Of a DNA stretch of 64,000 bases, positions 46,738 through 56,753 are shown one piece after another. How positions within the stretch are numbered: position 1 is the stretch's first letter; every line of letters starts with the position of its first letter. The DNA comes from Desulfitobacterium dehalogenans ATCC 51507 (GTDB lineage Bacteria > Bacillota > Desulfitobacteriia > Desulfitobacteriales > Desulfitobacteriaceae): contig NC_018017.1 of NCBI RefSeq assembly GCF_000243155.2, forward strand, positions 1,798,001 through 1,862,000, given 5' to 3'. Below the pieces are notes generated by a model. The model saw only the letters and a program-made list of their open reading frames with translations. It was not told where the DNA came from and did no database searches. The position numbers and the translations under genes were made by a program.

Positions 46738-48592
46738 AGCGTTGCTCCAGATCCTCCAGGATAATCTTAAACTGGGTCTCATAGAGGAGTTTATAGAGTC
46801 CCTCCTCCTCGACCAGATCCCAATGGGTCCCCCTTTGGACGATTTCTCCATCCTGTAAGACGATGATTTCATCCACGGCCATAATAGTGGAAAGCCGGTG
46901 TGCGATAATAACACTGGTTCTGCCTCTGATAATAGGTTCAATGGCTTCCTGAATGAGGGACTCGCTGATAGAATCCAGGGAAGAGGTGGCTTCATCCATA
47001 ATCAGGACTTTGGGATTCTTCAAAAGAACCCTGGCGATGGAGAGGCGTTGTTTCTCCCCGCCGGATAATTTCAATCCCCGGTTGCCTACTAAAGTGTCAA
47101 AGCCCTCAGGAAGAGTGCGGATAAAATCATAGATATTGGCTTCCTGACAGACTCTGATCAAGTCCGCTTCTTCGGCCTGCTCATTGGCATAGTGGAGGTT
47201 CTCACGAATGGTTCCGTTGAAGAGATAGGTGTCCTGGGAAACCATGCCAATGTTCTGGCGCAGAAAGTTCAGGTCAAGGTTCCGAACATCCTGCCCATCC
47301 AGGAGAACTTTACCTTCGGTCACATCATATAAGCGAGGGATGAGGTTGACCAAGGTGGATTTTCCTGTTCCCGAGGGCCCCACAATAGCCACGGACTTTC
47401 CTTTTTCTATGGTTATATTGATATCCTTCAGGATGGGCTTTCCCTCATACTGAAAAGAAACATGGTCAAAGATGATTTTTCCTGCACACTCCTTGGGGAC
47501 GATAACCTGGGGGGAGTTTTTAATTTCAACGGGGATGTCAAAATACTCAAAGATTCTGGAGAAGAGGGCCAGGGAACGGATGATATCCACCTGAATGGTT
47601 AGAAGGACATTCACAGGAAGATACAGACGTCCCAGCAGTGCTACGACAACGGTAATATCCCCTACAGTCAGGTCTGAGCCCATTTTGATAATGAGGAAGC
47701 CACCGGCTAAGTAGATGATCATGGGTCCCATATTGGTGAAGGTATCAAAAATGACCCGGAACCATCTGCCCACGAGAATTTCCCGGATGCTTAAACGGGT
47801 GATCTCCCGATTGATTTTCTCAAATTTTGTGTACTCCTTATCCTCACGGGTAAATAATTTAACCAAGAGTTGACCACTGACACTTAAGGTTTCATTAAAC
47901 AATTGGTTGGAGGCATCCGTTTGCTCCTGCTTGGCCATGGTGAGGGACCAGCGGCGATTTCCCACTTGATTGGTGGGGAGGATGAACAAAGGGACGATGA
48001 TAATACTGATCAAAGCCAGGACCCAATTCTTTTGGAAGAGGGCGGCCAGGGTTGTAACGAGGATAATGGTATTGCTGACAATTCTGGTCAAGGTACCCAC
48101 AATGACGCTTTGAACACCATTGATATCCGTGGTCATACGGGTAATGATATCTCCTTGATTATTATTTGTGAAGAAACGGTGGGACATCTGCTGCAAATGG
48201 CTATACATCTGATTTTTCATATCGTAGATAATATGTTGAGCGACCCAGGTAGTCAGGTAGTTTTCGAGGACATTAATTAAGTTAGAGATGATCAAGACGG
48301 TAAAAGAAAGGAGGATCAACTGGGCCAAGAGGGAAAAATCTTTACCGATCAACCCCTCGTCAATAATACGTCCGGATAATAAAGGAGGAAGGAGTCCAAG
48401 GAGGGATGAGGTAATGATAGCGAAGAACACTAAGGCAAGCCTTGGCCAGTAAGGCAGAAGATAGCTCAAAATTCGTTTGAGAAAAGCTTTAGTCAGTTTA
48501 GGCCTATTGAGTTTTTCTTCTTCAGTCAGCGGGGAGTGAGCGCTTCGCCCCGGGGGTCTGCCATACCGCATGAGAATCTCCTCTAATGACAT
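46736..48592 (-). CDS. ABC exporter, permease-ATPase
   Basis: A 618-residue half-size ABC exporter: a cytoplasmic lead (about 1-45), six membrane helices (about 48-345) and a full ATPase domain with Walker A GPSGTGKST (about 410), Q-loop MVSQDTYLF, signature LSGGEKQRLSIARVL and Walker B VLIMDEATSSLD. The lead containing RYGRPPGRSAHSP is common in clostridial exporters of this group. It should work as a dimer to expel drugs or lipids; the substrate is not known. It is monocistronic and divergent from the Mn riboswitch-mntP unit. Confidence 0.92.
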   Translation of the reverse strand: MSLEEILMRYGRPPGRSAHSPLTEEEKLNRPKLTKAFLKRILSYLLPYWPRLALVFFAIITSSLLGLLPPLLSGRIIDEGLIGKDFSLLAQLILLSFTVLIISNLINVLENYLTTWVAQHIIYDMKNQMYSHLQQMSHRFFTNNNQGDIITRMTTDINGVQSVIVGTLTRIVSNTIILVTTLAALFQKNWVLALISIIIVPLFILPTNQVGNRRWSLTMAKQEQTDASNQLFNETLSVSGQLLVKLFTREDKEYTKFEKINREITRLSIREILVGRWFRVIFDTFTNMGPMIIYLAGGFLIIKMGSDLTVGDITVVVALLGRLYLPVNVLLTIQVDIIRSLALFSRIFEYFDIPVEIKNSPQVIVPKECAGKIIFDHVSFQYEGKPILKDINITIEKGKSVAIVGPSGTGKSTLVNLIPRLYDVTEGKVLLDGQDVRNLDLNFLRQNIGMVSQDTYLFNGTIRENLHYANEQAEEADLIRVCQEANIYDFIRTLPEGFDTLVGNRGLKLSGGEKQRLSIARVLLKNPKVLIMDEATSSLDSISESLIQEAIEPIIRGRTSVIIAHRLSTIMAVDEIIVLQDGEIVQRGTHWDLVEEEGLYKLLYETQFKIILEDLEQR

Positions 48593-48725
48593 TTTAATAT
48601 CATTATAATTATAGGGTATTATTTGGCTGATGTCACTTTGACTTAAAAGGGAATATTATGGAGCAGTGGGGGGAAACAGGTTGAATATTAATGGAAGATG
48701 GTATAATATTGACAATATGGCGTTT

Positions 48726-48840
48726 CCATGGGGGAGTAGTTAGCATAGCCGTGGCTATGTGGCAAGTCAACATAATGACCACTCGGTCTGGCTTGTCTTA
48801 AAAAACAAGACTCATGAGTAGTTCTTAAAGCTACCCGTGG
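48726..48840 (+). ncRNA. yybP-ykoY riboswitch (Mn2+ sensor)
   Basis: The aptamer shows the class signature: GGGGAGTAG at the 5' side, GTCAACATAATGACC, CGGTCTGG and the closing GCTACCC, with a P1 stem CCATGGG (48726-48732) and CCCGTGG (48834-48840). Known members bind Mn2+ and often control the manganese exporter mntP, which is the next gene here, 87 bp downstream. High Mn2+ should switch expression on. The expression platform between 48841 and 48914 was not resolved. Confidence 0.9.
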
Positions 48841-48927
48841 GTCTTATTTTGATTCCGATGGATTTATTAAGTAAAATTCATGGCATCCGGGGAACCATAA
48901 AATTAAGTTAAAGCAAGGAGTATGATC

Positions 48928-49488
48928 ATGGGAAATCTGGCGTTATTAATCATTGCCATAGGGCTTTCCATGGACGCTTTTGCTGTGGCTATCAGCAAAG
49001 GTTTGTCCATGCGGCGGATGAGCTATAAGACAGCATTAATTACGGGAGCTTTTTTCGGAGGATTTCAGGCTTTAATGCCTCTCATAGGCTTTGTGTTGGG
49101 AACGCGGTTCGAGTCCTATATTACGGCAATCGACCATTGGATTGCTTTTATCCTCCTTTCTCTGATCGGTTTGAATATGATTAAGGAGTCCAGAGGTCCC
49201 TGTGAAATCATCGAAGACCGGTTTAATCTTAAAGAGATGGTCACTCTGTCCTTAGCCACAAGCATTGATGCCTTGGCTATTGGGGTTACCTTCGCCTTTT
49301 TGCATGTGGACATCCTACCCGCCGTATCCATGATTGGTGTAACTACCTTCGTTTTTTCCTTCTTGGGGGTTAAGATCGGTAATGTTTTTGGAGAGTGCTA
49401 TAAGTCCAGGGCTGAGTTGGCCGGTGGGGTGATTCTGATTTTGATGGGGGTTAAGATCCTTTTAGAGCATCTGGGCTTCCTTGGCTAG
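48928..49488 (+). CDS. mntP: Manganese efflux pump MntP
   Basis: A 186-residue membrane protein with six hydrophobic helices and two repeats of the MntP pattern: [12 protein letters not shown] near the N-terminus and [13 protein letters not shown] near residue 115, whose Asp residues are needed for export in characterised MntP. The ATG at 48928 has AAGGAG 7 nt upstream; the ATG at 48922 is too close. It lies under a Mn2+-sensing riboswitch, which fits its function. Confidence 0.95.
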
Positions 49489-49576
49489 TCACGTTTTAAA
49501 GTATATTTAAGCTAGACAGGATAGAATAATTGGAAATAAGGCCCTGGTCTATCCCATGGAAAAAGGGAGGGGTATG

Positions 49577-50125
49577 ATGCGATTATTATTAGCCGAGGAT
49601 GAACTGGAACTCGCCAATGCTTTAACCATGATTCTCAAGCACAACAATTATTCTGTGGATGCGGTATATAATGGGGCTGATGCTCTGGATTGGGCTTTGG
49701 CCGGAAACTATGATGGAATCCTCATGGATATCATGATGCCAAATGGGCTTGAGGTTCTCACCAAGCTTCGGGAAAAGGGGATTTCTACCCCGATCTTAAT
49801 GCTTACGGCAAAAGGGGAAATCGAGGACCGGATCGAAGGTTTGGATCATGGGGCAGATGATTACCTCACGAAGCCTTTTGCCATGGGGGAATTATTGGCA
49901 CGAATTCGTGCCATCACCCGGCGCAAGACGGAATTTGCCCCCAATCTCCTGACCGTAGGCAATTTGCAGTTGAATCGGACAAACTATGAACTATCCAGTG
50001 AGAAGGGTTCCCTACGGTTAGGGAACAAAGAATATCAGATGATGGAAATGATGATGAGCAGTCCTAATCGGCTGATCTCCACAGAGCAATTCAAAGCGGA
50101 AGTATTGAAGATTGTATTGCGCTGA
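49577..50125 (+). pseudogene. OmpR-type response regulator, truncated
   Basis: A 182-residue remnant of an OmpR-family regulator. The receiver domain is nearly complete (LMDIMMP with the phosphorylated Asp, MLTAKGE, DDYLTKPF), although two residues after IMMP seem missing (family form MMPKMDG, here MMPNG). The DNA-binding domain begins normally up to RLISTEQF and then stops after about ten unrelated residues, losing the recognition helix and wing. No kinase gene follows. It is probably a decayed two-component system, or else a receiver-only protein. A terminator follows at once. Confidence 0.75.
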
Positions 50126-50144
50126 CCAGCTTGAAAGAATTGAG

Positions 50145-50180
50145 AAAAAACAGCATCACTCAAAGCGATGCTGTTTTTTC
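50145..50180 (+). terminator. Terminator after the truncated regulator
   Basis: Arms ACAGCATC and GATGCTGT extended by A/T pairs, followed by TTTTTTC. Confidence 0.9.
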
Positions 50181-50232
50181 AATAATAAAAAGCACGATGT
50201 TATCATTTTATTTGCTCTTTTTTCAGCCGGAA

Positions 50233-50274
50233 TTGATATTAATCAAGGTTCCTTTCTTCGTTATGATTTAGAAT
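50233..50274 (+). promoter_or_regulatory. FNR box and promoter of scdA-hma
   Basis: A perfect FNR box TTGAT-ATTA-ATCAA (50233-50246) lies 29.5 bp (centre to start of -10) before TAGAAT (50269-50274). This puts the box near -41.5, the class II activation position. Confidence 0.8.
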
Positions 50275-50320
50275 AAAAGCATTAAAAGAAGAACAACGGA
50301 TACGAAGGGGGATATTTCTT

Positions 50321-51016
50321 ATGAAACAAACAATCACAATCAACGGTCAAACAGAGCTTGGCGAACTTGTAACTTTTTTTCCTGCCATTACTTCACGCTT
50401 GAATGATCTGCATATTGACTACTGTTGTCAAGGGGATCGCTCCCTCGAATCAGCTATCAAAGAAGCAGGTCTGTCGATCGATTTCATCGCAGAAGTACAG
50501 AACGCGTACAATAATTATTTAGCAAAACCAGACAAGGAACTACCGGTAACTGAGCTTTCTGACGAAGAGCTCATTGACCTCATCCTTGATACACATCATC
50601 TAACCGAGCGTGCTTTATGGAAGGAGCTGGATAAGCAAGTTAATTTGATTTTGCTCGTCCATTATGAGCATGGCAAGGACTTGATGCTGAATGTGCACCG
50701 CAGCTTCAGCGAATTAAAGATGGAGTTAGAGGAGCATTTCGCAAAAGAGGAGAAGGAACTTTTCCCCGCGATGCTTAAAGAAAATAAGATACCTGAAGAT
50801 CGTGCGGCCATAAGGGCACTGATCGACGAATTAGAAGGTGAGCACGATGGTGCCGGTAAGATTATTAAACGTTTAATCAAGGAAACCAACGATTTCACAC
50901 CACCGGAGTACGCCTGTCCTACAGTGAAAGCAGTTTATCAGAAACTCCATGAGCTGGTTGATGATATTTTCCTGCATATCGCCAAGGAAAACAGCGTTTT
51001 ATTCAAGCGTTACTAA
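50321..51016 (+). CDS. scdA: Iron-sulfur cluster repair di-iron protein (ScdA/RIC/YtfE)
   Basis: A 231-residue protein with the N-terminal DUF542 domain (DYCCQGDRSLESA, about residues 28-42) and a C-terminal hemerythrin-like domain with His and Glu ligands in THHLTERAL, VHYEHGKDL, LEEHFAKEEKELFPAM, GEHDGAG and FLHIAKENSVLFK. RIC proteins repair iron-sulfur clusters damaged by NO or peroxide and help release iron. It heads a unit under a perfect FNR box and is followed by a small HMA-domain gene 22 bp away. AAGGGGG precedes the ATG. Confidence 0.95.
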   Translation: MKQTITINGQTELGELVTFFPAITSRLNDLHIDYCCQGDRSLESAIKEAGLSIDFIAEVQNAYNNYLAKPDKELPVTELSDEELIDLILDTHHLTERALWKELDKQVNLILLVHYEHGKDLMLNVHRSFSELKMELEEHFAKEEKELFPAMLKENKIPEDRAAIRALIDELEGEHDGAGKIIKRLIKETNDFTPPEYACPTVKAVYQKLHELVDDIFLHIAKENSVLFKRY

Positions 51017-51037
51017 ATCTGAAGGAGTGATGCTACT

Positions 51038-51259
51038 ATGGCAAAAGCAGAATTTCAATTAGAGCCCTTAACTTGTCCGACCTGTGTCAAGAAAATTGAA
51101 TCCACACTGACCAAGGCCAAAGGGGTTGATTCGGTAAAAGTATTATTCAGCTCCAGCAAGGTAAAAACGGAATTCGATGATACCCAAACGAATGCCGAGA
51201 AACTAAAGCTAACGATTGAAAACTTAGGTTATACAGTATTAACTTCGAAAGTCTCTTAA
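51038..51259 (+). CDS. Small HMA-domain metal-binding protein (CPTC)
   Basis: A 73-residue protein that is a single heavy-metal-associated domain with the metal site LTCPTCVKKIE (Cys pair about residues 14 and 17). Free-standing HMA proteins act as metallochaperones. It lacks the Met before the CxxC found in copper chaperones, so the metal is uncertain. GAAGGAG precedes the ATG. Together with scdA it forms the first FNR-box unit; a second HMA gene lies after the terminator in the next unit. Confidence 0.88.
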   Translation: MAKAEFQLEPLTCPTCVKKIESTLTKAKGVDSVKVLFSSSKVKTEFDDTQTNAEKLKLTIENLGYTVLTSKVS

Positions 51260-51330
51260 ATAATTTATTTTGCGATGGCCTTGATCCAGCAGGCTGGGGT
51301 GGGATTTCAATTCCAGATCTAAATAACAAA

Positions 51331-51360
51331 AAGAAGCGAGGCAGGGCCTCGCTTCTTCTG
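51331..51360 (+). terminator. Terminator after scdA-hma
   Basis: Arms GAAGCGAGGC and GCCTCGCTTC with a 3-nt loop, flanked by an A-run and a short T/C stretch; it separates the two FNR-box units. Confidence 0.85.
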
Positions 51361-51413
51361 CGTGCGACAGGCAGTCGCGCTGACTCACTTAACGGGTCTT
51401 TTTTAGTCTAATC

Positions 51414-51455
51414 TTGATTTTAATCAAGGCGAATAGATCGGATTTGCACTATGAT
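51414..51455 (+). promoter_or_regulatory. FNR box and promoter of hma-P1B ATPase-crp
   Basis: A second perfect FNR box TTGAT-TTTA-ATCAA (51414-51427), again 29.5 bp before a -10 element TATGAT (51450-51455). The geometry is identical to that of the box at 50233. Confidence 0.85.
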
Positions 51456-51492
51456 TAGGTTCATCAGAAAGAATTCTTAAGGAGGAACAGAC

Positions 51493-51741
51493 ATGAGCAA
51501 AGTTCTATTTCAGATAACACCACTGAGCTGTCCCGGCTGTGGCAAGCAAATCCATGAAAAGCTAATGGAACAGGATGGTGTCATAATAGTGAAGGTCTTT
51601 CCGAGACTTGGCAGGATCCGCACAGAATTCGATGAGGCAAAGACAAATGCGGCACATTTAGAGGGTCTGATCGGCAGCTGGGGTCACGCCGTGGAGCTTA
51701 AAAAGCTCAAAAGGGGGTATGAAAATGATGAAGCATATTAA
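51493..51741 (+). CDS. Small HMA-domain metal-binding protein (CPGC)
   Basis: An 82-residue single HMA domain with the metal site LSCPGCGKQI (Cys pair about residues 13 and 16). It is paralogous to the CPTC protein at 51038 (shared IxPLxCPxC and RTEFD/KTEFD segments) but has a longer Lys-rich tail. AAGGAGG precedes the ATG. Its end overlaps the P-type ATPase gene, which lacks an N-terminal HMA domain, so this protein may serve as its detached metal-binding domain. Confidence 0.88.
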   Translation: MSKVLFQITPLSCPGCGKQIHEKLMEQDGVIIVKVFPRLGRIRTEFDEAKTNAAHLEGLIGSWGHAVELKKLKRGYENDEAY

Positions 51742-53608
51742 TAAGCATAAAAACCAGATGACAGCAATTTCCGGTATCCTTATCGTGCTTGGTTTCCTGC
51801 TTTCATTAGCAGGATATGAAAGCTATAAGGATTTGGCTTTGATCACGGCGACCCTCATCGCCATTATTCCTATCGCCCTCAAGGCTTTCCAAGCGCTGCG
51901 CATGAAGGCCTTTAGTATTGAACTCTTGGTGACGATCGCCGTCATGGGTGCCCTTTATATTCATGAGTACACCGAGTCTTCAGTTGTTACGTTCTTGTTT
52001 TTATTTGGTGCCTACTTGGAAGCACGTACTCTGGAAAAAACCCGTTCTTCTTTAAAAGCACTTGTGGATATGGCGCCACAGGAGGCAAATGTCATTCGTG
52101 AAGGGAGAAATTTGACGATACCTGTGGAGGAAGTCGTCAAAGGTGATCGGGTTATTATCCGCTCTGGAGGCAAGGTTCCTGTTGATGGCAGTATCGTGTC
52201 CGGTAAAGCGACCTTGAATGAAGCGGCTATTACAGGTGAATCTGTGCCGGCCTCGAAAGAGATAGATGATAAGGTTTATAGTGGTACTATTGTCGATAAT
52301 GGCTATATAGAAATTATTGCTGAAAAAGTTGGGGATGATACTACTTTTGCAAAAATAATCGAGCTTGTGGAAGAAGCACAAGAATCAAAATCAAAAACCC
52401 AAAAGTTCTTGGATAAGTTTTCAAACTACTATACACCGGCTATAGTCATCTTATCGATCATCGTTTATGCGCTTACCCGTAACCTCCATTTAGCAATTAC
52501 CTTCTTAGTTGTCGCTTGCCCTGGTGCTTTGGTCATCGGGGCACCTGTGTCCACTGTTGCCGGAATTGGCAATGGTGCTAGAAACGGTGTCCTTGTCAAA
52601 GGCGGAGAGGTTATGGATCGCTTATCTAAGGTTGATACAATTGTCTTTGACAAAACGGGTACCCTAACGAAAGGAAAACCGGCAGTAACAGATATGAAAA
52701 ACTTCTCTAATCTGGAAGCCAAAGAATTGCTCAGATTGGTGGCGAAGGCAGAAACTATTTCTGAGCACCATCTAGGACAAACGATTGTCAAAGAAGCGAA
52801 TAAGAGGAATTTGAGCCTTGAAGGAGAAGTGCTTAACGGTGAAGTAATTAAAGGCAATGGCATTCGAGCACAAGTTGACGGTTACGAGCTGGCGATTGGT
52901 AATCGGAAGCTAATGGATGCGGGAAATATCCAGGTTAGTGATGAGGCTTCAGCTTATGCCCTTCAACGTGAAAAAGCAGGAAACACGGCAATATTCGCGG
53001 CGGTAGATGGCCAGGTTGCCGGTATCTTCTCCATAGCCGACCAGATCCGTGAAGATGCCCATCAAGCTTTAGCGGAACTGAGAAAGCATGGTATCAAGAA
53101 AATGGTGATGCTGACCGGGGACAATAAGCATACCGCTGAGTTAGTTGCCGATGAACTCGGGCTGGATGAATTTCAGGCAGAACTACTACCGGAAAACAAA
53201 GTGGAATTTGTTAAGAAGTTGAAAGCGGCTGGACATGTCGTGGCGATGGCAGGGGATGGAATTAATGATGCACCGGCTATTGCGACAGCCGATATAGGCT
53301 TAGCCATGGGTGAAGGCGGTACCGATGTATCCATGGAAACAGCGGATGTGGTCCTGATGGCGGATAAGCTCATGCAGTTCTCTCATGCCTACGCACTTGC
53401 CAAGGCGACGGTGCGTAATATGAAGCAAAACACATTCTTTGCAGTGGCCATTGTCTTTATTCTCTTAGCTGGGGTATTGTCGGACTATGTTCATTTGGCA
53501 TCGGGGATGTTTATCCATGAAGCCAGTATTTTAATCGTGATCCTTAATGCCATGAGACTGATGCGCTTCAATCATAGAAGCGAAAGTGTCGAAATCGAAA
53601 TGAGATAA
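51725..53608 (+). CDS. P1B-type metal-transporting ATPase with CPG membrane motif
   Basis: A 627-residue heavy-metal P-type ATPase with about six membrane helices and no N-terminal metal-binding domain. The catalytic motifs are intact: TGES, DKTGTLTKG (phosphorylated Asp), HHLGQ (HP-like), MLTGDN and GDGINDAPA. The metal-site helix reads VACPGALVIGAP, that is CPG in place of the usual CPC, SPC or TPC, and the last helices read FIHEASILIVILNAMRL, like the HEG(G/S) of P1B-4 (Co/Fe/Zn) pumps. The metal is therefore open; iron or zinc fits the context with scdA. ATG 51725 has AAGGGGG 7 nt upstream. Confidence 0.92.
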   Translation: MMKHINKHKNQMTAISGILIVLGFLLSLAGYESYKDLALITATLIAIIPIALKAFQALRMKAFSIELLVTIAVMGALYIHEYTESSVVTFLFLFGAYLEARTLEKTRSSLKALVDMAPQEANVIREGRNLTIPVEEVVKGDRVIIRSGGKVPVDGSIVSGKATLNEAAITGESVPASKEIDDKVYSGTIVDNGYIEIIAEKVGDDTTFAKIIELVEEAQESKSKTQKFLDKFSNYYTPAIVILSIIVYALTRNLHLAITFLVVACPGALVIGAPVSTVAGIGNGARNGVLVKGGEVMDRLSKVDTIVFDKTGTLTKGKPAVTDMKNFSNLEAKELLRLVAKAETISEHHLGQTIVKEANKRNLSLEGEVLNGEVIKGNGIRAQVDGYELAIGNRKLMDAGNIQVSDEASAYALQREKAGNTAIFAAVDGQVAGIFSIADQIREDAHQALAELRKHGIKKMVMLTGDNKHTAELVADELGLDEFQAELLPENKVEFVKKLKAAGHVVAMAGDGINDAPAIATADIGLAMGEGGTDVSMETADVVLMADKLMQFSHAYALAKATVRNMKQNTFFAVAIVFILLAGVLSDYVHLASGMFIHEASILIVILNAMRLMRFNHRSESVEIEMR

Positions 53609-53652
53609 CGAAGGAAAGCGAATTGGTATAATGCTAGGAGAGGAAAGTTGAA

Positions 53653-54366
53653 ATGAGCAAACATGAGTGCGGTCATGGGCATAATCACGGGTGTGAATGT
53701 GAGGGACACACATCATGTGTCTCATTGGTACCGATATTTAATCATCTCGAAGCTGAGCAAATGGCTGAAATCACGGAAGCTGTTCAATCAGATTCCTACA
53801 AAAAGGGCGAGGTCATTTATCGGGCCGGGGATCAATCCGATTCACTCTATATTGTCAGAAGTGGGAAAATCAGAGTTTATCGTTTATCAGAATCTGGCAA
53901 GGAACAGTTGGTGCGTTTTTTGAGCCCAGGGGATTTCACAGGTGAACATGCTTTGTTCAGTGAGTCTGTTCATGAGTCCTATGCCGAAGCAGTGGAAAAC
54001 ACGGAGGTTTGTCAGATAACGCGCACGGATTTACAGAAGTTCCTTTTGAAATACCCCTCAATTTCTTTGAAAATCTTAACGGAATTCTCGAGCAGGCTGG
54101 AAAAATCGGAGAAACAAACCACAAGAGTCTCAACGGAGAAGGTGGAAACCCGGCTTGCTCTTTTCCTGGCTGAGTGTATCGATAAAGAAGAAGCGTCGAT
54201 GGAGTTTGTACTTCCGATGAGTAAAAGGGATCTGGCTTCCTTCCTAGGGACAACGCCGGAAACAATCAGTAGGAAATTAACGGAATTTGAAGACGCGGGA
54301 TATATTAGACAGAAGGCCCATAGGAAGATAGAGGTTATTGATTTAGATGAACTGCTCTTGGTCTAA
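53653..54366 (+). CDS. Crp/Fnr-family regulator with His/Cys-rich N-terminus
   Basis: A 237-residue regulator with a cyclic-nucleotide-binding-like beta-roll domain (about 28-145), a dimer helix and a C-terminal helix-turn-helix whose recognition helix TTPETISRKL has the Glu-x-x-Ser-Arg pattern that reads TTGAT half-sites. The N-terminus HECGHGHNHGCECEGHTSC holds five His and four Cys and could bind a metal or an iron-sulfur cluster. Two perfect FNR boxes lie before the units of this region, so it probably controls them and itself. It resembles the FLP regulators of lactic acid bacteria. GAGAGGAAAG precedes the ATG. Confidence 0.92.
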   Translation: MSKHECGHGHNHGCECEGHTSCVSLVPIFNHLEAEQMAEITEAVQSDSYKKGEVIYRAGDQSDSLYIVRSGKIRVYRLSESGKEQLVRFLSPGDFTGEHALFSESVHESYAEAVENTEVCQITRTDLQKFLLKYPSISLKILTEFSSRLEKSEKQTTRVSTEKVETRLALFLAECIDKEEASMEFVLPMSKRDLASFLGTTPETISRKLTEFEDAGYIRQKAHRKIEVIDLDELLLV

Positions 54367-54491
54367 ACAGCTTTGCTTTGAGAGTAAATATATTTAAGCT
54401 AGGAAAGCTAAAGATTGAATAATGTGTTATAATTAACCAAAAATAAGCGTTTTTGCATGAAAAACAGAATTTAAGATTGAGGTGATGACTT

Positions 54492-55049
54492 ATGAGTCGA
54501 ATAAAGATTGGAGTCCTCGTGGGAAGTTTACGCAAAGATTCCTTTTGCCGCAAGCTGAGTAAGGCTCTTAAGGAAGTAGCCCCTGAGTCCTTCGACCTGG
54601 AAGAAGTGGAGATTGGAGAACTGGTTCTTTACAACCAGGATCTTGATGAGCCGGACAACCTTCCGGAAGCCTGGACTGTCTTCCGGGAAAAGATGAGAAG
54701 CTATGATGCCTTTATTTTTGTGAGCCCCGAATACAACAGGTCAGTGCCTGCGGTCCTTAAGAATGCTCTCGATGTGGGATCCAGGCCGCCCAGTAAGAGC
54801 GTGTGGGGAGGCAAACCCGGAGCGGTCCTGACTGCCTCACCGGGTTCAATCGGTGGCTTTGGTGCGAACCATCACCTTCGGCAAATCCTGTCCTGCTTAA
54901 ATGTGCCCACTATGCAGGCTCCTGAAGCTTACCTGGGCAATATTGCAACTGCTTTTGATGAAAGCGGCAATCTTACCAGTGACCGGACCCGCGGATTTTT
55001 ACAAAAATTCATGGAGTCCTATGCAATTTGGGTGGGCAAGAATAGATAA
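54492..55049 (+). CDS. NADPH-dependent FMN reductase
   Basis: A 185-residue flavodoxin-like enzyme of the FMN_red family. The FMN phosphate loop GSLRKDSFCRKL (about 11-22), SPEYNRSVPAVLKNALD (about 77-93) and the GxxGG-type ASPGSIGGFGA loop are intact. Family members reduce flavins, quinones or chromate. GAGGTGAT precedes the ATG. It is followed 25 bp later by a ferritin-like gene, so the pair may be an oxidative stress operon. Confidence 0.92.
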   Translation: MSRIKIGVLVGSLRKDSFCRKLSKALKEVAPESFDLEEVEIGELVLYNQDLDEPDNLPEAWTVFREKMRSYDAFIFVSPEYNRSVPAVLKNALDVGSRPPSKSVWGGKPGAVLTASPGSIGGFGANHHLRQILSCLNVPTMQAPEAYLGNIATAFDESGNLTSDRTRGFLQKFMESYAIWVGKNR

Positions 55050-55073
55050 CTCAATAAAAATGGAGGGATAGTC

Positions 55074-55559
55074 ATGAATGCTTTGGAATTCGCCATCAAA
55101 ATGGAGCTGGAAGGGGAACGCTATTACCGGGAGCAAGCAGAAATTAATCAAGGAAACAGCTTGAAATCAATTTTCTTAATGCTGGCAGATGATGAAAAAA
55201 TGCATGCTCAAATCTTAGAGAAGAAAGCCAATAAATTGGACTATTCACTGGAACCTAACGAGACCTTGGCCACGGCCAAACATGTCTTCAGCAATAAAGA
55301 CAGGATTAAAAACGAGATTAAAGAGATTCCCAGTCAGATCGATGTTTATCGGGCTGCCATGGAAAATGAAAGAGAAAGCATCCATCTCTATCAAAAATGC
55401 GCCTCTGAAGCAGCGGATGAGGAGACAAAGGCCTTGTTCGAATACCTGATTCTCCAGGAAGAAGATCACTATGCCGTCCTGGATCGATTGATCTCTTTAC
55501 TTAGCCACGCTGAAGAATGGGTGGAAAATGCCGAGTTTGGAGTCAGGGAAGATTATTAA
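55074..55559 (+). CDS. Ferritin-like (rubrerythrin-superfamily) protein
   Basis: A 161-residue four-helix protein with the di-iron ligand pattern of erythrin-type proteins: Glu in MELEGERYYRE, Glu and His in DDEKMHAQI, Glu in MENERESIHLY and ExxH in QEEDHYAVL. It lacks a rubredoxin domain. Its likely role is peroxide or iron handling. ATG is preceded by TGGAGGG. It follows the FMN reductase gene, which could provide electrons. A strong terminator follows. Confidence 0.9.
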   Translation: MNALEFAIKMELEGERYYREQAEINQGNSLKSIFLMLADDEKMHAQILEKKANKLDYSLEPNETLATAKHVFSNKDRIKNEIKEIPSQIDVYRAAMENERESIHLYQKCASEAADEETKALFEYLILQEEDHYAVLDRLISLLSHAEEWVENAEFGVREDY

Positions 55560-55576
55560 AACAAATTGATACTAAG

Positions 55577-55618
55577 AACCACGAGTTTGTTATGATGACA
55601 GACTCGTGGTTTTTTCTT
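55577..55618 (+). terminator. Terminator after the ferritin-like gene
   Basis: Arms AACCACGAGT and ACTCGTGGTT with a T-run of six or more. Confidence 0.92.
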
Positions 55619-55752
55619 TTAAAGTGAATTTAAGGTTCAGCATGTAAACTCTAACCATGGTGATTGTTAAGTCATTGTAAATCTTATCTAAAAGCAATGT
55701 AAAGGGGTATTTAATACAAACAGGATGAAAAAGAAATCTGGAGGGCAAACAA

Positions 55753-56107
55753 TTGAGCAAATACCAATCTGTTTTCAAGCACTACGAAAAGAAATATAGG
55801 TTGAATGAAGAACACTATAGCCATCTGATGAAAAAACTGGAGGGAAAGCTGAAAGAGGATAAATTCAAGCAAAGCATTATCAGCAATATAAGACCTTGAT
55901 TTAAGCATAGCTCCTTGGGGAAATTTGTTATTGGCTCCGGGAGAGCACCTTATGGAGATAAAGATTGCCGGAGCGATGCCGTTATGGCTTTCTCATACTT
56001 TAGACGAACTGGAAATCTACCCGAGCTCCTTTTCCAAATACGGCAAGGCTTATATGAGCTTGTTAGCACGTCAAACATTGAATAAAGGAGGAAAAGCCAT
56101 TGCCTAA
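55753..56107 (+). pseudogene. VTC-domain (polyphosphate polymerase-like) gene with internal deletion
   Basis: Two remnants of one VTC-domain gene. The first runs 55753-55899 (TTG start after CTGGAGGG) and encodes the family N-terminus FKHYEKKYRLNEEHY up to a stop after residue 48. The second, 55925-56107, encodes the family C-terminus LAPGEHLMEIKI, AMPLWLSHTL and IYPSSFSKYGKAY. The central part with most of the catalytic tunnel residues is missing, a loss of roughly 300-450 bp. The usual partners DUF4956 and a Cthe_2159-like protein follow. The second fragment overlaps the DUF4956 start by 8 bp, as the intact gene would. Confidence 0.85.
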
Positions 56108-56753
56108 CACTATTTTTCAAAGTATATTGAATACAGACACTACTGGAGCTGCCTTTTCTATGCAATCTTTTCTCCTTTGTACAGGTATTTCCATATTGCT
56201 GGGAATTGTTATTGCTTTTTTCTATGCGTTTCGTAACTCCTACTCCTATAGTAAAAGCTTCGTGGCTACTTTAGCCTCATTACCGGCAATTGTTCAGCTT
56301 GTTATCATGCTGGTCAACCGAAACTTAGGTGCCGGTCTTGCCGTTATGGGTGCATTCAGCTTGGTGCGTTTCCGTTCCATTCCTGGTTCCGCAAAGGAAA
56401 TCAGCAGTATTTTTCTGGCTATGGCTATAGGCTTAGCCACTGGTATGGGTTTCTTAGGGATTGCAGTTATTTTCACATTGATCCTTGGCTTGACCAACCT
56501 TCTGCTGGATTGGGTTGGGTTTGGGGAGCAGAAAAATGCCGAGAAAACCCTGAGAATTACAATTCCCGAGGGGCTGGATTACAGTGGAGTTTTTGATGAT
56601 CTCTTTGGCCGGTATCTGAGCAAGTGGGATTTAGTCCGGGTTAAAACCACCAACATGGGGAGCCTCTTTAAATTAGATTACCGAATAGTATTAAAAGATG
56701 CAAAAATGAACGAGAGCTTATTAATGAACTTCGCTGTCGCAACGGTAATTTAG
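56100..56753 (+). CDS. DUF4956 membrane protein
   Basis: A 217-residue protein with four or five hydrophobic helices (about 22-150) and a C-terminal soluble part. GAFSLVRFRSIPGSAKEISSIFLAMAIGLATGMG-type central stretch is the hallmark of DUF4956, here split over residues about 82-120. Its function is unknown; it is regularly encoded with VTC-domain and CotH or Cthe_2159-like proteins. The TTG start has AAAGGAGG 7 nt upstream and overlaps the end of the VTC remnant. Confidence 0.88.
   Translation: MPNTIFQSILNTDTTGAAFSMQSFLLCTGISILLGIVIAFFYAFRNSYSYSKSFVATLASLPAIVQLVIMLVNRNLGAGLAVMGAFSLVRFRSIPGSAKEISSIFLAMAIGLATGMGFLGIAVIFTLILGLTNLLLDWVGFGEQKNAEKTLRITIPEGLDYSGVFDDLFGRYLSKWDLVRVKTTNMGSLFKLDYRIVLKDAKMNESLLMNFAVATVI

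Follow-up and report, generated by a model that had tools for sequence, protein, structure and literature searches.

Among the described systems that come closest to the locus considered here, the copper export operons unite a small HMA-domain protein (the chaperone CopZ), a P1B-type pump (CopA) and a linked regulator, which is CopY or CsoR and not a Crp/Fnr protein. A comparable grouping occurs in a 64,000-nucleotide stretch of the Desulfitobacterium dehalogenans ATCC 51507 genome (NC_018017.1, positions 1,798,001 to 1,862,000; henceforth the window, in whose numbering the features are given), where a five-gene set, scdA-hma-hma-ATPase-crp, lies on the + strand within 50092-54382. Here, too, small HMA proteins accompany a P1B pump and a linked regulator; the regulator is a Crp/Fnr protein, and the pump differs from CopA, which has CPC and another sixth transmembrane segment (TM6) in the aligned E. 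coli protein.

Three further families invite comparison. The RIC (ScdA/YtfE) repair proteins combine ScdA_N and hemerythrin domains and match TIGR03652. The named Flp proteins, with one N-terminal cysteine and one near residue 120, have a disulfide switch and an FNR-type box; to our knowledge they have no clear core regulon and no agreed signal. Flp of Lactobacillus casei and FlpA and FlpB of Lactococcus lactis are FNR-like with two cysteines instead of four, and cluster use by such two-cysteine proteins of Gram-positives is reported as disputed (PMC5039431); FlpA stands among the metal homeostasis regulons of lactic acid bacteria (PMC3616900), and for the region ahead of flpA and flpB in L. 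lactis MG1363 a different motif has been put forward (PMC3547956). The iron-exporting P-type ATPases known so far belong to P1B-4, with Fur or PerR as their regulator wherever one has been established (PMC7762939); SPC and HEGxT have been proposed as the metal site of P1B-4 pumps (PMC8880997), and in DR1440, an iron pump, SPC is important (PMC6091924).

With moderate confidence we interpret the five-gene set as an acquired, self-regulated module of metal efflux and iron-centre protection. In the proposed mechanism the product of the last gene, a Flp-type Crp/Fnr protein, would bind both FNR boxes at -41.5 and activate both promoters as a class II activator, promoter 1 serving scdA-hma1 and promoter 2 serving hma2-ATPase-crp with positive feedback. 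The switch would most likely be thiol- or metal-based, through C22 and C120, and not the classical four-cysteine [4Fe-4S] oxygen switch. A P1B ATPase of a CPG/HExS group, either supplied with metal or regulated by the HMA proteins, would pump the metal out, and RIC would tend damaged iron centres. The parts are as follows:

50092..54382, no strand: the acquired cassette, unmatched in the same-genus genome G001, which matches both flanks (blastn)
50233..50246, + strand: FNR box 1, TTGATATTAATCAA, a perfect TTGAT-N4-ATCAA
50269..50274, + strand: -10 element TAGAAT of promoter 1, class II, box centre near -41.5
50321..51016, + strand: scdA/RIC, iron-sulfur cluster repair di-iron protein, 231 aa, ScdA_N plus hemerythrin
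51038..51259, + strand: hma1, free-standing HMA protein with CPTC, 73 aa, PF00403
51414..51427, + strand: FNR box 2, TTGATTTTAATCAA, a perfect TTGAT-N4-ATCAA
51450..51455, + strand: -10 element TATGAT of promoter 2, class II geometry
51493..51741, + strand: hma2, HMA-like protein with CPGC, 82 aa, relatives in loci L002, L003 and L049
51719..53608, + strand: P1B-type metal ATPase, 629 aa, no fused HMA domain, TIGR01525, CPG in TM4 and GMFIHEAS in TM6
53653..54366, + strand: putative Flp-type Crp/Fnr regulator, 237 aa, C22 and C120, helix with E203, S206 and R207

The scdA product has PF04405 and PF01814 above the Pfam cut-offs, which places both the ScdA_N and the hemerythrin domain in it; its match to TIGR03652 (188.3 bits) lies below the cut-off of 204.7. 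The hma1 product matches PF00403 with 49.8 bits (cut-off 24.8, E 4.5e-13). No Pfam family, PF00403 included, matched the hma2 product in a Pfam search, and its matches to the NCBIfam models MerTP, CopZ and TIGR00003 are all below cut-off. An earlier sequence-only reading of this DNA had named the same genes as scdA-hma and hma-ATPase(CPG)-crp, a naming that stands with hma2 put as HMA-like; the two perfect boxes it placed at 50233 and 51414 were recovered by pattern search, and the equal spacing, the E--SR helix of the regulator and the view of the set as one system, which it had also put forward, are borne out by the comparisons below.

The cassette and its boundaries

In a blastn comparison of window positions 48501-56500 with locus L153 of G001, the match stops at 50091 and resumes at 54383, the flanks being 86% identical up to 50091 and 80% identical from 54383. 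The corresponding place in G001 is taken up by an intact response regulator (240 aa) followed by a histidine kinase (408 aa), both named by likeness to the remnant in the window and by eye. A block of 4.29 kb replaces 1,482 bp of G001; its only genes are those of the two units, whose promoters it also contains. Because G001 holds the response regulator and histidine kinase between the same neighbours, we read the set from these alignments as a cassette that was acquired as a unit and that replaced part of a two-component system. The remnant of that system lies at the left border:

49556..50125, + strand: truncated response regulator, outside the module, its last residues extending into the cassette

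Its first 182 residues are 93% identical to the G001 regulator, which has a 240-aa open frame; two residues are gone after DIMMP relative to G001, and the histidine kinase that adjoins it there is absent from the window. As a sign of transfer, base composition shows no clear difference between the cassette (0.437) and its flanks (0.457 and 0.455).

Three other members of the genus were searched for the pump: G001 gave no match at E 1e-120; in G002 and G003 there is one each, at 50% identity. The nearest pumps, up to 89% identical, come from metagenome-assembled genomes (MAGs) labelled Paenibacillaceae, Bacillus, Eubacteriales and Syntrophomonas. An FMN reductase and a rubrerythrin downstream were considered as members of the system and rejected, as they occupy the same place in the cassette-less G001. 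Further downstream, window positions ~55750-56107 hold the remnant of an open reading frame (ORF) that is intact in G001 (242 aa, L153 4571-5299), with ~390 bp missing; we take it to resemble a VTC/polyphosphate polymerase domain protein.

FNR boxes and promoter geometry

In both promoters of the window the box centre lies 29.5 bp ahead of the -10 hexamer (TAGAAT and TATGAT). This puts it at -41.5 from the predicted starts, the class II position, where a -35 element would otherwise lie. An alternative TATGAT at 50262 lies near box 1; relatives retain a hexamer at the place of TAGAAT.

The box by itself was rejected as evidence, as boxes with one mismatch occur at chance level in the window (6 against 5.07 expected in shuffles) and most other perfect boxes overlap ORFs. 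Genome-wide there are 19 perfect boxes against 4 for a reversed control pattern; with the window's two set aside, 14 of 17 overlap a mechanically called ORF of 90 aa or longer and three do not (in L071 and L080 the box lies at an ORF start). The composite of box, N22 and TANNNT with zero mismatches has three matches in the 4.32-Mb genome, all at the two window boxes, the third being box 1 read on the opposite strand. With one mismatch allowed there are 36 further matches against 10 for the reversed control, and weaker additional targets elsewhere in the host genome are therefore possible.

Related loci were collected by a scan for the ATPase, which gave 67 loci in records that name an organism, many of them MAGs. 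For the phylum, 398 genomes were searched, 62 had a match, and the 30 best loci from these genomes were taken, the window's own included. Three of the 67 are without a full CPG ATPase: L058 is cut, L063 has CPH and L065 consists of fragments. In the 67 loci and the window, TTGAY-N4-RTCAA occurs 82 times in 35.4 kb around the starts of module genes and 18 times in 721 kb elsewhere, a ~93-fold difference in density (reversed half-sites: 0 and 2), the background away from module genes being about one box per 40 kb.

The spacing recurs with the box. Among 65 non-redundant promoters, the window's included, 58 place T-A---T precisely 29.5 bp from the centre of the box, the next-best distance reaching 10/65; a pyrimidine stands at 40.5 bp in 62/65 and an A at 41.5 bp in 52/65, a pyrimidine-A step such as would be expected of the +1 start, with the starts placed by prediction rather than mapping. 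When the set is widened and the window left out, T-A---T stands at 29.5 bp in 76 of 88 non-redundant promoters; all 110 boxes of this set, near-copies included, yield the hexamer in 9 cases when read backwards.

The full combination of RIC, HMA protein, pump and regulator is found in L001, L002, L003 and L049, and is rarer than the core set described below. A box precedes scdA in all four of these loci, and a second box precedes hma2 in L002, L003 and L049, which reproduce the two-box layout; by pattern, no box precedes scdA in L016. In the Planococcus/Planomicrobium loci L009, L013, L015 and L066, a class II FNR-box promoter precedes a flavodoxin-type gene (called by Pfam in L066 and by eye in the other three), and a lipoprotein-like gene, named by eye, has such a promoter in L009, L013 and L066.

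Two hairpins of the window were listed by a scan that found 9 in the region against 5.9 expected in shuffles:

50144..50180, no strand: terminator-like hairpin close to the left end of the cassette, 17-pair stem, scan-listed for the - strand, consensus match only
51329..51359, no strand: strong hairpin between the two units, 14-pair stem, scan-listed for the - strand

The inter-unit stretch 51262-51412 has a folding z of -3.22.

The pump, the regulator and their recurrent neighbours

The window ATPase matches TIGR01525 with 575 bits (cut-off 346) and contains DKTGT, which makes it a P1B-type protein; CPG lies at 267-269 in TM4 and GMFIHEAS at 596-603 in TM6. CPG is present in it and in 101 of the 111 ATPases of the alignment. 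Of the ten rows without it, one is cut ahead of the motif and the others are E. coli CopA and ZntA and second pumps with CPC, SPC or CPH. All 101 aligned CPG proteins have G and M followed by H and E in TM6, as well as N610; two residues past the E, 100 have S and one has N. A CxxC in the first 90 residues was found in none of the aligned CPG pumps. As the CPG proteins were all found by homology to the window pump, a shared motif is expected in the close ones; the common TM6 motif says more for pumps at about 48-56% identity to it.

These motifs separate the pumps from the recognised subclasses. CPG takes the place of the CPC of P1B-1 (CopA) and P1B-2 (ZntA), for which the E. coli proteins served as references, and also of the SPC of P1B-4, and the HEGxT of P1B-4 is represented with a variable G and with V or I for T. 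In a quick tree of 96 of 106 ATPases, the CPG rows fall on one side of a branch with a Shimodaira-Hasegawa-like approximate likelihood ratio (SH-aLRT) of 97, with ZntA and an SPC pump, not CopA, on the near side; the reference branches are long, which makes the placement beside ZntA unsure. On motifs and tree, the CPG pumps are a distinct P1B group by our reading, and since they share HE they may work like P1B-4 pumps even while falling outside P1B-4 by motif. Like sCoaT and the iron exporters PfeT and FrvA, they have HE plus S in TM6 (by the sCoaT alignment) and no fused N-terminal HMA domain; unlike these P1B-4 ATPases, they have CPG for SPC, no HEGxT threonine and a free HMA partner (PMC8880997), and a linked Crp/Fnr regulator replaces the Fur or PerR of the iron exporters (PMC7762939). 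That the window ATPase exports a metal we regard as highly likely. In the titles and abstract openings of open-licence literature, among the matches listed, no CPG-type pump with a Flp regulator was found, "CPG" being a poor search word. In locus L056 (4962-9419) a CPG pump lies side by side with an HMA gene and a P1B-4-like pump that has SPC and HEGST.

The regulator was aligned with its host paralogue at 1137159 and 54 regulators from other loci. Its recognition helix reads ETISR, the E--SR of FNR, and C22, C120, E203, S206 and R207 are invariant in 56/56. Its further cysteines are C14 and C16, spaced C-x-C where FNR has C-x-x-C; a cysteine aligns with C14 in 44 and with C16 in 7 of the 56, and six proteins have two cysteines in all. 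The nearest solved relative, by sequence and predicted fold, is the FNR of A. fischeri, with whose cysteines C16, C22 and C120 align. The AlphaFold model has a mean predicted local distance difference test score (pLDDT) of 79.1, and residues 1-19 are below 50, which makes it uninformative on the N-terminal cysteines. With the two cysteines of the Flp type in 56/56, we class the regulator as putatively Flp-type, by cysteine pattern and not by alignment with the named Flp proteins; unlike those, it is encoded alongside RIC, HMA proteins and a CPG ATPase in a single cassette. It is very likely to read both boxes, and there is a strong likelihood that it activates the promoters. A thiol or metal signal is the more probable kind in place of a [4Fe-4S] oxygen sensor, because the pattern is the two-cysteine one for which cluster binding is disputed.

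Near 100 CPG ATPase genes there is an HMA gene in 91 cases, an FNR box in 73 and a Crp/Fnr gene in 55; the 64 loci of the ATPase scan alone give a box in 56 and a Crp/Fnr gene in 39. Near-copies are kept in this linkage count and in those of the 56 regulators, 111 ATPases and 101 CPG proteins (for instance, the pumps of L115 and L116 are identical to those of L012 and L004). The recurrent core is HMA protein, CPG pump, Crp/Fnr regulator and FNR box, a new combination and a new pump group built of parts of known kinds. Its carriers include many Planococcus, Sporosarcina and Bacillus, which are mostly aerobes. Copies also occur in records labelled Arthrobacter, Alcaligenaceae and Acholeplasmataceae (L027, L044, L045 and L050), by transfer or through mislabelled contigs. 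Two peptide patterns matched 30 stretches in viral contigs; none was confirmed as a pump relative.

Genes for iron proteins recur next to the core. RIC adjoins the pump in the window and five other loci, and the 100-gene count gives RIC 5, a shortened mini-RIC 12, Dps 9 and any of these 26. In a later search mini-RIC stood beside the CPG pump in 15 of 31 loci with short flanks (L108, L119, L121, L123, L124, L126, L128-L130, L135-L137 and L139-L141). It has ~100 residues with conserved HGxxHPEF and CE.Y; TIGR03652 links it to RIC (two members scanned), and one member scanned against Pfam had no match. Unlike the known RIC proteins, the RIC and mini-RIC proteins considered here are tied to a metal pump and its regulator. 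Seven of the 15 mini-RIC genes have a class II box in front, as do the Dps genes on two near-identical plasmids, and on pLMR479a the iron-export gene FetB adjoins the module.

Metal, signal and box reader

Several observations count against the module as we interpret it. Twenty-seven of the 100 CPG loci have no box and 45 no nearby Crp/Fnr gene, and among the 31 loci with short flanks the box is present in only 12 and the Crp/Fnr gene in 13. By pattern, a class II box of their own is missing from seven of the nine Dps genes and from eight of the 15 mini-RIC genes. Boxes unassigned to module genes have the class II hexamer in 11/32 readings, each box being read on both strands; they are not a pure control because some precede Dps-, mini-RIC- or flavodoxin-type genes, and some class II readings among them precede no clear gene. 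In the window, the pyrimidine-A start step fits promoter 1 and is one base off in promoter 2. The remaining points concern the metal, the cysteines and the reader of the boxes, and each bears on a competing explanation.

For the metal, CxxC HMA proteins usually handle copper, zinc or mercury and not iron, and analogy with known pumps gives no reading, because CPG has neither the second CPC cysteine nor the SPC cysteine and the HEGxT threonine is I or V. Zinc, copper or another thiophilic metal as the true substrate, with the iron-protein neighbours answering secondary oxidative stress, is a serious contender at somewhat less than an even chance. The CxxC HMA proteins speak for it, as do the tie of Flp proteins to zinc in Lactococcus, the place of FlpA among metal homeostasis regulons (PMC3616900) and the ZntA/SPC-pump side of the quick, long-branched tree; CadD, a multicopper oxidase and a metal-sensitive regulator near some plasmid copies count against iron as well. 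The HE of TM6, however, is the P1B-4 pattern, and RIC, mini-RIC and Dps recur, some of them sharing the box. Because of these neighbours we favour Fe(II), which still falls a little short of an even chance; zinc, cobalt or cadmium seems unlikely, and Cu(I) distinctly more so. The excerpt of a cadmium-response paper considered here mentions neither Crp, Fnr nor Dps (PMC8554106).

The cysteines C14 and C16 of the window regulator make a cluster in this particular protein possible, and a classical anaerobic FNR unit, in which an oxygen-labile [4Fe-4S] cluster would have the genes turned on under anoxia, would suit both the kinship with A. fischeri FNR, three of whose cysteines are matched, and the anaerobic life of a Desulfitobacterium host. 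We consider it rather unlikely. C16 is shared by few of the aligned regulators and six of these make do with two cysteines, many carriers belong to aerobic genera, and cluster use by the Gram-positive two-cysteine proteins is disputed (PMC5039431). The sequence-only reading had joined metal release or efflux to iron-centre damage or the absence of oxygen: the link to metal export and repair is retained, and the sensing of oxygen absence is not supported, C22 and C120 being the invariant cysteines. The neighbourhood survey it had called for yielded the linkage of HMA gene, box and Crp/Fnr gene to the pump given above, with the full scdA set in four loci. Its own refuting case, boxes served by another Fnr, is weakened by zero-mismatch promoters unique to the window and kept alive by two paralogues.

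These paralogues, among the 10 Crp/Fnr proteins that one search found in the host, are encoded at 1137159 (ETMSR) and 2231626 (ESVSR; L090), and because both have E--SR we infer, rather than observe, that the linked regulator is the reader; that another host protein serves the boxes while the linked one has other targets is nevertheless quite improbable, since the boxes arrived within the cassette, boxes and a linked Crp/Fnr gene occur together in relatives, the genome has no further promoter that combines box and hexamer at zero mismatches, and the gap directly upstream of the 1137159 gene has no box. The regulator at 1137159 (L098 5633-6385) has a cysteine-rich N-terminus, and its gene follows a carbon monoxide dehydrogenase-like gene (by eye).

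Beyond the acquired efflux and protection module, a bolder reading, which we rate as less likely than not, is that the CPG/GMxxHExS pumps form a separate P1B subclass that would export Fe(II) released by damage, fed by free HMA proteins and controlled by a two-cysteine Flp regulator instead of Fur or PerR; the same Flp protein would also induce RIC, mini-RIC or Dps, and a transferable iron-damage response would be held in one cassette. The cassette occurs in chromosomes and on plasmids of food-associated bacteria, and the comparison across many genera fixes a regulator with its candidate site, its targets and the geometry of the promoters. Should iron prove to be the metal, bacterial iron export would gain a regulator other than Fur and PerR.

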